Virus record (IMG/VR): IMGVR_UViG_3300020020_000111
Location: 1-34,833 of that record
Direction: 5' to 3' (one strand)
DNA from: a virus
DNA length: 34,833 bases
Shown here: piece after piece, positions 6,616 to 14,374 of the stretch
How positions within the stretch are numbered: the stretch's first letter is position 1
How the letters are laid out: each line of letters opens with the position of its first letter
Position numbers and translations under genes: made by a program
The notes under the pieces: model-generated
Databases searched by the model: none
What the model was told of the DNA's origin: nothing
What the model saw: the letters and a program-made list of their open reading frames with translations, nothing else

Positions 6616-7020
6616 ATGCTGGTTAACTACGGACTGCAGAATCAGGCACAGACGGCATTCGCTGCCGCTGCTGTTGCCTCCGCGCCGGTCGACATTCGCG
6701 GCTATGTTGGTTTCTCGTTCACCGCGAACGTCATCACTGCCATCGCTACAGACGCGGTGTTCAACGTCCAGGCGGCTCCGCCTTCGGATGCTGACCCGTG
6801 TCTGCCGGGGACGTTTGTTGACGTCCCTGAAGTTCCGATCTGCTCCGTTCCGGCCGTGCCGGCACCGCAGTCGACCTTCGCCATTCCGGCCGGTACCCCG
6901 GCTGGGGCGCGCTGTTCGATCTTCATGCCGTGTAAGCCGGATGCGTTCATTCAGGTGTTGCCGGTATCCGGTGACACGGCGAACGTGGAGATTGTCATCG
7001 GACTGCACGGCCCGAAGTAA
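6616..7020 (+). CDS. head-associated protein, unknown (possible decoration protein)
   Basis: 134 residues with a good ribosome binding site (AGAGGAAAC). It is beta-rich, with low charge and many Pro/Ala (PEVPICSVPAVPAPQSTF), a Gly/Val pattern (VDIRGYVGFSF) and four Cys. Its position directly after the major capsid gene is where head decoration or stabilisation proteins often lie, so that role is a reasonable guess from context, not from recognised motifs. It ends with EIVIGLHGPK. Confidence 0.75.
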   Translation: MLVNYGLQNQAQTAFAAAAVASAPVDIRGYVGFSFTANVITAIATDAVFNVQAAPPSDADPCLPGTFVDVPEVPICSVPAVPAPQSTFAIPAGTPAGARCSIFMPCKPDAFIQVLPVSGDTANVEIVIGLHGPK

Positions 7021-7023
7021 GCG

Positions 7024-7440
7024 ATGCGGGTACCGGCAGGACGACGCTTGAGAGTGGGGCCAGGAGACGCAGTTGTTCTCCTGGCCCGTCTACCCGACCC
7101 TTCAGTTCTGGGGCGTCTTTACGTGTTTGCGCGTGAAGGCGGCGAACCTGAGTATTCTCCATACATTCCAGGTCTGGCGGATATGGCAGAGTTTTCGGCA
7201 CCGACAATGAGTTCGCCGCTTTATATGCGGCTGACTGAAGCCCGCCGGGAAGGCAAGATATCGTTCAAGAGTGATATCGACGGCTGGGTGCGTATCTACC
7301 AGGAGGTTGACGGAGACCGGGACACCCGCGTAGCTGTACGCTGGAAGTACCAGGTCTCACCTGATCTACCCTGGACCCATCGCGTCTTACGCTATCTGCG
7401 TGGGTATTTCGACAAGGTTCAGGGGCTTGTATCTACGTGA
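7024..7440 (+). CDS. hypothetical head-region protein
   Basis: 138 residues starting at the ATG 3 bases after the previous stop; the ribosome binding site is weak. It contains VGPGDAVVLLARLPDP near the N-terminus and a beta-looking stretch SFKSDIDGWVRIYQEVDGDR, then a basic C-terminal helix (HRVLRYLRGYFDKVQG). I recognise no family. The GTGA at 7437-7440 overlaps the next gene, suggesting coupled translation within the head-accessory cluster. Confidence 0.65.
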   Translation: MRVPAGRRLRVGPGDAVVLLARLPDPSVLGRLYVFAREGGEPEYSPYIPGLADMAEFSAPTMSSPLYMRLTEARREGKISFKSDIDGWVRIYQEVDGDRDTRVAVRWKYQVSPDLPWTHRVLRYLRGYFDKVQGLVST

Positions 7441-10025: not shown

Positions 10026-10062
10026 CCGGCAGCGAGCTAGCCCTCGCTGCCGGGCGATTTTT
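10026..10062 (+). terminator. strong intrinsic terminator between head and tail blocks
   Basis: CCGGCAGCGAG (10026-10036), a 6-base loop and CTCGCTGCCGG (10043-10053) form an 11-bp perfect stem, followed by GCGATTTTT. This is the clearest rho-independent terminator in the window. The next gene's ATG lies 8 bases after the T-run, so tail genes need readthrough, antitermination or another promoter. Confidence 0.85.
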
Positions 10063-11159: not shown

Positions 11160-11717
11160 GTGGACGCAATCACACCCAAAGTTGCGGTTCGGTTCCTACC
11201 AGCGCTGGCTGAGCAGATTGCGCTGTGGTTCCCAGAGGTAGGGGGGCGGTCACTAGCCGTCTCCGAAGTTACAATCACGAAGGAGAACGTCCCAACCCTA
11301 CCACTGGTAATGACGGCCTTCACGAACTCTGTTGCTGAGCCGCCGTCGCGTAGTCAGACTACAATGTTCGACATCATTGATACTTTTGTCGTTGAGTTCT
11401 GGTTGGAACCGGCACGCTACAAGAAGGCGAATGGGGCCGAAACTCCGTTCTGGAGCTACTACCCCTACGAAGAGATCAGGGACACGCTGCTGACGAATAT
11501 CTCTCAGTGGCAGACCCCAAACGGCGAGATCATTAGCTACCGCCGCCTTCAGCTTGGCGCGGACCCGCTCGCGGTTACTCTGACGTTTACCTTCGTGGCG
11601 GTGTTCCGCTGGTGTCCGAGCAAGATCACGAACATTGGTCAGCCGTTCACCTTAACGACCACCCTGAAGCCGGATACAAGCTGTTGTATCCCTGAGGAGC
11701 CGGACCCGTGCCAGTGA
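11160..11717 (+). CDS. tail terminator-like protein
   Basis: 185 residues with a GTG start. N-terminal helix VRFLPALAEQIALWFPEV, then a beta-rich body with IDTFVVEFWLEPARYKK and RRLQLGADPLAVTLTFTF, and a Cys-containing tail (SCCIPEEPDPC). The position, between the gp10-like gene and the DUF2635 gene, is that of the Mu gp37-type tail terminator, and the alpha/beta layout fits. The call rests mainly on context. The ribosome binding site is weak. Confidence 0.55.
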   Translation: MDAITPKVAVRFLPALAEQIALWFPEVGGRSLAVSEVTITKENVPTLPLVMTAFTNSVAEPPSRSQTTMFDIIDTFVVEFWLEPARYKKANGAETPFWSYYPYEEIRDTLLTNISQWQTPNGEIISYRRLQLGADPLAVTLTFTFVAVFRWCPSKITNIGQPFTLTTTLKPDTSCCIPEEPDPCQ

Positions 11718-11755
11718 CAACCAAATTCAAGACCCCGAAGCAGAGGAGTTCTGAT

Positions 11756-12049
11756 ATGCCGATGATCTACGTCAAGACCAAGCCTGACCGGCGAGCCTAC
11801 TTCGAGGGTCGGGTGATTCCGCAGGACAAGTTCGTTCCAGTCGTGGACACGCCGTACATCCGGCGCCTCATCGATCACTGGGGTGATCTTGAAGTGGAGG
11901 GCGGCTCAGGCGGAAAGTCGAGCAAGACCATCCAGTCTGGGAAGCCCGCCGCCGAGCAGCGCCCACCATCCGCACATCCGGCGCAGCCGACCCAGGCCGC
12001 CCCGAACGTCCCTGCGCCAGGGACCGGCGCACCCAAGCCGACGAGCTAA
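11756..12049 (+). CDS. DUF2635-like tail protein (Mu gp38 position)
   Basis: 97 residues from ATG 11756, preferred over the GTGs at 11708/11714 because CAGAGGAG lies at good spacing. Residues 1-45 (YVKTKPDRRAYFEGRVIPQ, then VPVVDTPYIRRLIDHWGDL) follow the DUF2635 pattern 'vkp..gr.v.dp..g.....g..vp...yw.RRl.dGdv', the small protein coded just before the sheath in Mu-like phages. The second half is Pro/Ala-rich and likely disordered, an extension beyond the usual family length. It acts in an unknown way in tail assembly. Confidence 0.75.
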   Translation: MPMIYVKTKPDRRAYFEGRVIPQDKFVPVVDTPYIRRLIDHWGDLEVEGGSGGKSSKTIQSGKPAAEQRPPSAHPAQPTQAAPNVPAPGTGAPKPTS

Positions 12050-12089: not shown

Positions 12090-13631
12090 ATGTCAATTGA
12101 CAGCCTTCGGTCCGGCGCAATCCGGATTTGTTTCTCCGACGCACTCAACGCCTATCCATCCAAGTGTCGCATCCTGATCGAAGGTCAGATGCTCGACACG
12201 GGTGTTGCGGTTAGCGGCGAGCTGATCAAGATTCCATCTCTGCGCGACGTTGATCTTCTGTTCGGCGTGGGCAGCGTGATCGCGGAAGGTCTCAAGACGG
12301 CCTTCCTGTGCTGCCCGCAGCAGGCGATGGAATTTTTCGCGCTGCCGTGGAAGGACGCTGATGTCGGCGCCCTCACCAAGGCGGTCTACGACATTCGCTT
12401 CGAACAGAATGCGACCAGTGATGGCCGCATCGACCTTTACATCGGCGACGGCCGCTGGAATACCAGCACCCGCGTCAAGGAGGGAATGAAAGACGATGAC
12501 ATCGCCATCGCGGTGGAGCAGTCCCTTCTGATGGAGGATGGTCTTCCGTTTACCGTGTCGCGCGGCGACGCGGCAGGCGGTACGGGCAACGTGGTGCGTC
12601 TCATCGCGAAGAATGCCGGCACCGTGGGCAACTGCGTGGCGATCATCCCCAACTGGCACGAGAGGCGCAATTACTTCCCGGCCAACGTCGAGGTTTATAT
12701 CTCCCAGGATACAGTCGGCGCGGGCGCGATGACCGTGGCGCAGGCACCCGACTATCAGTCCATTCTGGGCGAATGCTGCTACTGTTGCATCGGCATGCTC
12801 TATGACGATGAGGTTTGGCAGGATGCGATGATTGAATACATCGCGTCGGCCTGGTCGTGCGACAAGCCCCAGTGCTTCGGTCACGGCTATACCTACAATC
12901 AGGGTACGTTCGGCGAAATCCTGGCGGCCGATACGAACTCTGCAGAGGTTTGCCGCATCGCGCATTGCTGCACCGATCCGAGCATTGGCTGGCTGAAGGT
13001 CGCGGCGTTTGCGGCGCACTCTTGCTGTGCCACGGTCGATCATCCGGAGCTCAGCGTGCAGGGGCCGAACGACGGCATCCTGGCCTGCCTGCGCATTCCG
13101 GAATCCTGCACGCAGTGCTTCACCTTCGAAGAGCAGCAGCTGCTTCAGGCCACTGGCTTTGTGGTTACCGTTCCGCTCCAGGGTGGCACGGGTAGCCTTA
13201 CCCAGCCGATGATCGTTAACGATAGTACAAACAACCGTTACGACGAGAATGGCCGCCTCAACGCCACGTGGTGGAACACCAACTCGCGGCGGCTGGCGGC
13301 GGCGACGGCGGATTCCATGGCCATCGCGCTTGGCCCGGTGCTGGGCCTTGGCCTGTTCACGAAGAACACGACTGTCCCGGCTGGCGTGCGCGGTACCAAC
13401 CCGCGCATGATCCTGGGCCAGGTGCGCGCCTGGGCGAAGGGTCAGATTGGGGTCCTGTTCAGCGAGTTCGATGACATCGACAAGGACATCGTGTTGCGAA
13501 CAGACTTCGAGGTTGCGCCGAAGTGCCAGGGCATTCCTGGCAAGCTGTGGCTGGACTTCACCTACCGGCCACCGGTGCGCATCTCGACGATCACGATCAA
13601 CGCTCAGCCGGCAATGCTGAGTAACTGCTAG
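12090..13631 (+). CDS. contractile tail sheath protein (Mu gpL-like)
   Basis: 513 residues from ATG 12090, with AAAAGGAGCG upstream; a longer frame from 11883 overlaps the DUF2635 gene and is rejected. The layout fits Mu-type sheath proteins: an N-terminal handshake region (FSDALNAYPSKCRILIEGQML), a GIGS-like stretch (DLLFGVGSVIAEGLKTAF), inserted beta domains, and a C-terminal core (RGTNPRMILGQVRAWAKGQ, PGKLWLDFTYRPPVRISTITI). It surrounds the tube and contracts on infection. There are 21 Cys, many paired (ECCYCC, SCDKPQC, HCC, SCC, SCTQC), far more than usual for this family, suggesting disulfides or metal sites. Confidence 0.88.
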   Translation: MSIDSLRSGAIRICFSDALNAYPSKCRILIEGQMLDTGVAVSGELIKIPSLRDVDLLFGVGSVIAEGLKTAFLCCPQQAMEFFALPWKDADVGALTKAVYDIRFEQNATSDGRIDLYIGDGRWNTSTRVKEGMKDDDIAIAVEQSLLMEDGLPFTVSRGDAAGGTGNVVRLIAKNAGTVGNCVAIIPNWHERRNYFPANVEVYISQDTVGAGAMTVAQAPDYQSILGECCYCCIGMLYDDEVWQDAMIEYIASAWSCDKPQCFGHGYTYNQGTFGEILAADTNSAEVCRIAHCCTDPSIGWLKVAAFAAHSCCATVDHPELSVQGPNDGILACLRIPESCTQCFTFEEQQLLQATGFVVTVPLQGGTGSLTQPMIVNDSTNNRYDENGRLNATWWNTNSRRLAAATADSMAIALGPVLGLGLFTKNTTVPAGVRGTNPRMILGQVRAWAKGQIGVLFSEFDDIDKDIVLRTDFEVAPKCQGIPGKLWLDFTYRPPVRISTITINAQPAMLSNC

Positions 13632-13659
13632 AGGTTTGGGTGCTTTCGGGCGCCTGAAC

Positions 13660-13892
13660 TCCGCGCGTCGATCTTTCACCGGCCCCCAGCCGAGGGACCG
13701 GCGCGCGGACGACTTTCTGTTAACGCGTGGAATGCCCCCCGAAGTACGCGCGTTGACTTCGCGCACCGTTCTGGATGCCCTCCTCCGGTGCGCGAATGTA
13801 CAAGCAGAAGCATGAACGCATCCCGCAATCCCTGCACGTGCTTCTGCGTATGTCGGTCCCGCGTCGGGTTCCACCGACGCGGGCTGACCGAC
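13660..13892 (+). ncRNA. array of five adjacent stem-loops, candidate structured RNA
   Basis: The 296-base gap between sheath stop and tube ATG has no gene I can support; most of it folds into five consecutive hairpins. (A) 13660-13670 with 13699-13709, 11 bp, one G-U. (B) 13719-13727 with 13749-13757, 9 bp, one G-U. (C) 13758-13768 with 13786-13796, 11 bp perfect. (D) 13804-13812 with 13839-13847, 9 bp, extendable outward by TAC/GTA and inward by 2. (E) 13858-13867 with 13874-13883, 10 bp perfect, extended by GTCGGT (13852-13857) with ACCGAC (13887-13892). Gaps between hairpins are 9, 0, 7 and 4 bases. No T-run follows, so it is not a terminator array. It could be a structured leader for the tube gene, an RNA-processing region or a separate RNA. 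The strand is presumed from the operon. Confidence 0.55.
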
Positions 13893-13927
13893 GTGATTCC
13901 AGTTAACTCAGCGAAAGGAACAGTCAA

Positions 13928-14374
13928 ATGACCTGTGAAAACCAGGTAGGCGTGAAGAACATCCTCATGACCTTCCTCGACTGCGACACCGGCGCGATCT
14001 ACGGCCCGATCAGTCACAATCTCAGCAGTGAGGACCTGCCCACGTGGCGGCTCTGTCCATACAACAACGATCCGCTGCCGCACGGCTACGTCAAACGGCA
14101 GCCGTCGAACCCAGAGGTCGAGATCAAGGTGATTCGCGACCTGCGAATTCCCTTGTCCATGTACCAGGGGTGTTCAGACGTTACACTCCAGGTGGAGTAT
14201 TACAACGGGCTGGTTTACTCTGCCGCCAAGGGGACCGGGACAGGCGACACCAAGTCGGATACCCACGAAGCAGAAATGACCATCGTGTTCAAGGAGATCG
14301 ATGAGCTTCTGCCGGCGGGTACCCTGGAGACGACAACCAACACGGTCGAACCGACATTCGCGGTGGCCGCGTAG
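13928..14374 (+). CDS. tail tube protein (Mu gpM-like)
   Basis: 148 residues with ribosome binding site AAAGGAACAG before the ATG, following the sheath gene as in Mu. Beta-rich, with EVEIKVIRDLRIPLSMYQG and VTLQVEYYNGLVYSAAKGTG, ending in DTHEAEMTIVFKEIDELLP, which resembles the 'a.v.lrf.gd.iee' closing strand of tube proteins. Stacked hexamers form the inner tube through which DNA passes. Four Cys (residues 3, 19, 43, 78 approximately) are more than expected. The long structured leader precedes this gene only. Confidence 0.8.
   Translation: MTCENQVGVKNILMTFLDCDTGAIYGPISHNLSSEDLPTWRLCPYNNDPLPHGYVKRQPSNPEVEIKVIRDLRIPLSMYQGCSDVTLQVEYYNGLVYSAAKGTGTGDTKSDTHEAEMTIVFKEIDELLPAGTLETTTNTVEPTFAVAA

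Follow-up and report, generated by a model that had tools for sequence, protein, structure and literature searches.

Phage late mRNAs carry intercistronic hairpins that work in processing or stability, the RNase III sites of T7 being an example. Tandem stem-loops are also found in the sponge RNAs of the CsrB/RsmZ type, which are multi-hairpin RNAs, and in REP/BIME elements, which are clusters of palindromic repeats. In LoaP-type antitermination, a leader hairpin is required and the terminator is read through, with LoaP recognising a hairpin of the UNCG type (PMC12691694). As for the genes of contractile tails, the tube protein gp21 of Agrobacterium phage Milano has its disulfide positions at the counterparts of Cys3, 19, 43, and 82 of the tube protein described below (PMC10811340).

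Here, we describe six tiled hairpins spanning 13633-13895 in the gap between the tail sheath and tail tube genes of a soil phage, known from a virus record of 34.8 kb; the whole of this stretch, 34,833 nucleotides, is called the window. The array looks like an unclassified RNA insert, a singleton so far, rather than a conserved switch of the tube gene. The features of the locus, with the evidence for each (energies in kcal/mol), are as follows:

12090 to 13631, + strand: tail sheath gene, Cys-rich and Milano-like (PHROG 165, E 8e-37; 42.6% identity to Milano)
13632 to 13908, + strand: inserted block, from the sheath stop codon to the tube leader (comparison of 63 related junctions; fold and shuffles)
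13633 to 13660, + strand: hairpin H1, 12 pairs including several G-U, UUCG loop (fold; -15.4 sense, -5.3 antisense)
13661 to 13708, + strand: hairpin H2 (fold; -29.3)
13719 to 13757, + strand: hairpin H3, 11 pairs, C-rich 17-nt loop (fold; -15.1)
13758 to 13796, + strand: hairpin H4, 11 perfect pairs (fold; -22.2)
13804 to 13847, + strand: hairpin H5, 11 pairs, one of them G-U (fold; -19.5)
13849 to 13895, + strand: hairpin H6, 10 perfect pairs, a 3-nt bulge and 9 more pairs, 6-nt loop GUUCCA (fold; -33.0)
13909 to 13927, + strand: leader of the tube gene with the Shine-Dalgarno sequence AAAGGA (sequence; alignment by eye with the leaders of relatives)
13928 to 14374, + strand: tail tube gene (Pfam PF10618; 48% identity to the Milano tube)

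The neighbours of the array are thus the sheath and tube genes, as a preliminary description made from the letters had claimed. The phage belongs with the Milano-like contractile phages, having a Cys-rich sheath and a tube homologous to Milano gp20/gp21, and it has 55.6% identity in the sheath and 60% in the tube to the Synechococcus phages Ssp-JY38 and Yong-L2-223. A tube 80% identical is encoded in one bacterial genome, that of Bradyrhizobium lablabi. The DNA of related contigs, where it can be aligned, is only about 70% identical. The four tube cysteines named above are invariant in 10 of 10 aligned sequences (the window and nine relatives), and a disulfide-locked tube seems, from this alignment, to be general across the phage group.

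The fold of the gap recovered all five hairpins of the preliminary description within a few bases of where it had put them, and it added one that had been missed, H1, which starts one base past the sheath stop codon, so that the total had been understated. The stems have 9-12 contiguous pairs, with H6 divided by its bulge, and the earlier figure of up to 16 was wrong.

This folding is far stronger than the composition of the gap would give. The minimum free energy of the array is -146.3 kcal/mol against a mean of -110.8 (sd 5.35) in dinucleotide shuffles, which gives z = -6.63, with none of 200 shuffles equalling it, and the claim that such tiled stems lie beyond chance therefore holds. Among 141 sampled windows of 296 nt from the contig (mean z -0.85, sd 1.36), the array is the most structured. 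Its z is -5.7 when 8,203 windows of 240 nt are scored across related phage DNA (1.08 Mb, this contig included), and only 29 of them (0.35%) fall below -5; where stronger windows were read, most proved to be long single inverted repeats or low-complexity GC palindromes. Scans by local energy or by raw hairpin score discriminated poorly in GC-rich coding DNA.

Other structured stretches were seen along the way. The second most structured of the contig, at 6697-7240 (z about -4.4), overlaps genes. Long GC-rich palindromic tracts of low complexity (CGGCCGGGACGGCCGGG..., GCGCGGCCGCACAGC...), with z down to -11.5, are present in the related contigs L145 (17230-17620 and 19700-20000) and L156 (620-1300; contig 3300020020_000160), and very long inverted repeats that fold as single long stems are present in L139 (980-1330), L151 (2300-2620), L173 (6450-6780), and L156 (100-400), some of them apparently located between divergent genes.

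The fold also has a strand preference. The sense fold of the array is more stable than the antisense fold by 16.4 kcal/mol, while in composition shuffles the difference is +5.0 +/- 5.3, with none among 200 reaching so low a value. Once base skew is corrected for, the bias has a z of -2.6, and of 227 other windows in the contig, only one is as biased towards the sense strand. There are 14 G-U pairs in the sense strand against 7 in the antisense strand, and H1 barely folds as antisense. Since the fold favours the + strand, which is that of the tail operon, the array behaves like an RNA rather than like palindromes of the DNA, and its structure, if it matters, matters as RNA of that strand. To this extent, the claim of a structured RNA stands: the fold is real and lies on the sense strand.

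As to the class of this RNA, the preliminary description had set aside tRNAs and a terminator array, rightly in both cases: ARAGORN found no tRNA or tmRNA gene, and no terminator-like site, that is, no stem followed by a T-run, was found at 13630-13930. Neither was a promoter-like site found in or beside the array, and with no such signals of its own, it is probably transcribed only within the operon mRNA. Reading of the array gave no credible open reading frame, none having an evident ribosome site. A CsrA sponge was rejected given that GGA is not enriched (4 observed, 3.8 expected), and a REP/BIME or CRISPR-like cluster was rejected given that there is no repeated unit, only weak two-copy matches.

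More decisive is the comparison with related phages. The array is absent from all 63 readable sheath-tube junctions of relatives, 42 of which have gaps of only 21-74 nt, while the other 21 have gaps of 205-1462 nt with cargo. This cargo comprises HNH endonucleases (PHROG 374, E down to 3e-67) in L025 (77-625) and, on the opposite strand, in L021 (3420-4000), another HNH endonuclease, by resemblance, in L040, a NUMOD4-HNH homing endonuclease (Pfam) in L034/L035 (L034:156-781), and otherwise Pro/Gly-rich 'PDQGLPG' repeat proteins, short Pro-rich peptides, and a small basic protein. The junctions of L048 (3070-4000) and L002 (3796-4000) are further examples of the site. The leader TCAGCGAAAGGA, directly before the tube gene, is common to L002 and to the window, where it follows the inserted block, and hence the array sits where cargo sits. 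Given that the junctions of relatives hold either nothing or unrelated cargo, the site is an insertion or cargo hot spot in the tail operon, and, as far as the sequences go, the array looks like one acquisition in one phage.

A conserved sheath-tube leader of the phage group is thereby ruled out. The preliminary description had proposed a structured leader controlling the tube gene and had named a lack of conserved stems in related phages as a refutation; none was found at these 63 junctions. Opening the tube start site is predicted to cost the same in either context, 16.6 kcal/mol when the array is present and 16.2 when it is left out. No direct translational effect is predicted from such an unchanged cost, and sequestration or switching of the start site was rejected. 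The H6 loop could pair through GUUCC with the GGAAC of the Shine-Dalgarno region, and we mention this only as an idea, since a random 6-nt loop does so in 2.5% of cases and there are several loops. Nothing points to the role in packaging that had also been proposed, while its other suggestions, a processing or stability element or an independent RNA, stay among the candidates.

Searches for homologues elsewhere, in sets that may lack the records closest to the window, agree with a singleton so far, although they do not prove uniqueness. In Rfam, there were no matches at the gathering score across the whole window, and the best sub-threshold match of the array was DsrA (E = 0.53; 18 bits against a threshold of 60). 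No homologue was found in 45 related records or in phage and plasmid records, where the plasmid matches were short and mostly inside unrelated genes, and BLAST against 147 genomes of the genus Bradyrhizobium and 397 of the order (Rhizobiales) gave only short matches at chance level. For H4, stem-pattern searches of viral contigs returned a single palindrome, in L106, an unrelated contig of 119 kb, and for H6, they returned 14, all unrelated. A covariance model of H3-H5 built from the single sequence found, in 1.26 Mb of related DNA, the window itself and then weak chance-like matches, and in 61 genomes of the genus of B. lablabi, one weak match.

We tentatively favour, with a probability of roughly 45%, a cis-acting role for the array between the two cistrons, in processing, stability, or uncoupling. 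The block of about 277 nt, probably transcribed within the late tail mRNA, folds into six consecutive hairpins, and this rigid tract, beginning one base past the sheath stop codon, would hinder ribosomes from running on from sheath to tube and would slow exonucleases, in such a way that the sheath and tube messages would be decoupled and each separately stabilised or processed. Several points weigh against this cis role: the array is known from one copy only, and so there is no covariation or conservation to speak for selected stems; a classical RNase III site would have longer stems than these, which are of 9-12 bp; and the unchanged accessibility of the tube start site predicts no direct effect on translation. 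Moreover, because the relatives manage without the array, any role that it has in the balance of the tail genes is dispensable.

Instead of acting in cis, the array may be cargo itself, a non-coding RNA gene in the hot spot whose RNA would be excised from the late mRNA and act in trans, with the host or other phages as its target. Self-contained cargo at the same site in 21 of the 63 relatives agrees with this, as does the strong sense-strand fold, and no role in the tail genes is required because relatives lack the array; nevertheless, the array lacks both a promoter-like and a terminator-like site and has no homologue in any set searched, and we consider the explanation unlikely. Its fullest form, in our opinion quite unlikely, is a non-coding RNA 'moron': a hot spot that usually takes up protein cargo would have taken up a novel class of RNA gene, whose product would be freed from the late tail mRNA and would work in trans on the host or a rival phage.

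A functionless or selfish insert, that is, palindrome-rich mobile or decayed DNA settled in a tolerant gap, would account for a singleton at such a site and for hairpins that differ from each other in sequence and have no conserved copies. Against it, neither a repeated unit nor other copies were found, and decay or palindromes at the DNA level should not favour the sense RNA, yet the sense strand is favoured, so that we regard this origin as rather improbable.

We think it very doubtful that the array is an antitermination or polymerase-modifying site in the long late operon, similar to put or to a LoaP leader and bound by polymerase or by a NusG-like protein. The suggestion arises from several related phages in which a NusG-like gene is present and tandem hairpins form a leader of the terminase gene, and from the UUCG loop of H1, which is of the type that LoaP recognises (PMC12691694). 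UUCG loops, however, are common, no terminator lies directly downstream of the array, and there is no NusG-like gene within the 34.8 kb at hand. Nor is the array convincingly similar to the leaders of relatives: its local alignments are within or near the shuffle range (with L121, 8 of 200 shuffles were as good; with L158 and L132, there was no similarity), which rejects a duplicate of the NusG-linked leader, and the motif GTAGTGGA...TTCACAC of those leaders is absent from the array by reading. The strongest terminator-like site of the operon is upstream of the array, at 10026-10053; this 11-bp GC-rich hairpin, midway through the late operon, has a T-rich tail on either strand and resembles a bidirectional terminator. 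Finally, a chance fold with no history of selection is highly improbable, for although GC-rich DNA generally folds well and the array has 62% GC, no shuffle of 200 folded as strongly, the array is the extreme of the sampled contig windows, and its strand bias was likewise reached in 0 of 200.

The search of relatives for similar folds also revealed the NusG-linked hairpin leaders of related phages. They form a different tandem-hairpin array, seen in L121 (11049-11870, with hairpins at 11570-11780; contig 3300017965_000002), and the same type occurs in L158 (10160-10390, minus strand), L177/L202 (L177:1900-2200), L132 (15060-15330), and L142 (900-1180); a pattern search found it in 11 contigs. 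It is flanked by a probable small terminase gene and by a NusG-like gene (PHROG 6386 'transcription antiterminator', E 2e-6; in Pfam, only a sub-threshold KOW match), and an intrinsic terminator, complete with T-run, closes it. One of its hairpins keeps GTAGTGGA-N3..5-TTCACAC while the two arms of its outer stem differ together, GCGG/CCGC against GCGA/TCGC, a compensatory change. This layout resembles LoaP-type antitermination (PMC12691694), and we propose the leader as a candidate phage antitermination RNA; it is more promising than the sheath-tube array as a possible new family of phage RNA.

If the sheath-tube array is functional, a cargo hot spot of a phage tail operon can carry structured RNA besides protein genes, and the locus offers a compact test of tandem hairpins tuning the sheath:tube ratio. 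If it is not, it cautions that a striking fold in a single genome is not the same as a conserved regulator.

Compared with the known systems, the array shares tandem hairpins with CsrB/RsmZ but has no GGA enrichment and no promoter or terminator of its own, and it shares with REP/BIME the clustering of stem-loops in an intergenic gap but has a strand-biased fold and no repeated unit or other copies found. In common with the leaders of LoaP and NusG paralogues, it consists of RNA hairpins in an operon, with the UNCG-type loop of H1; it lies, in contrast, in mid-operon, with no terminator after it and no partner gene in hand. The junction cargo of relatives shares the insertion site and the operon of the array, with protein genes there and no credible open reading frame here. 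From T7 RNase III-type sites, it differs in being six short, almost gapless hairpins with no duplex of about 20 bp, while having in common with them that hairpins lie between co-transcribed phage genes as sense-strand RNA.
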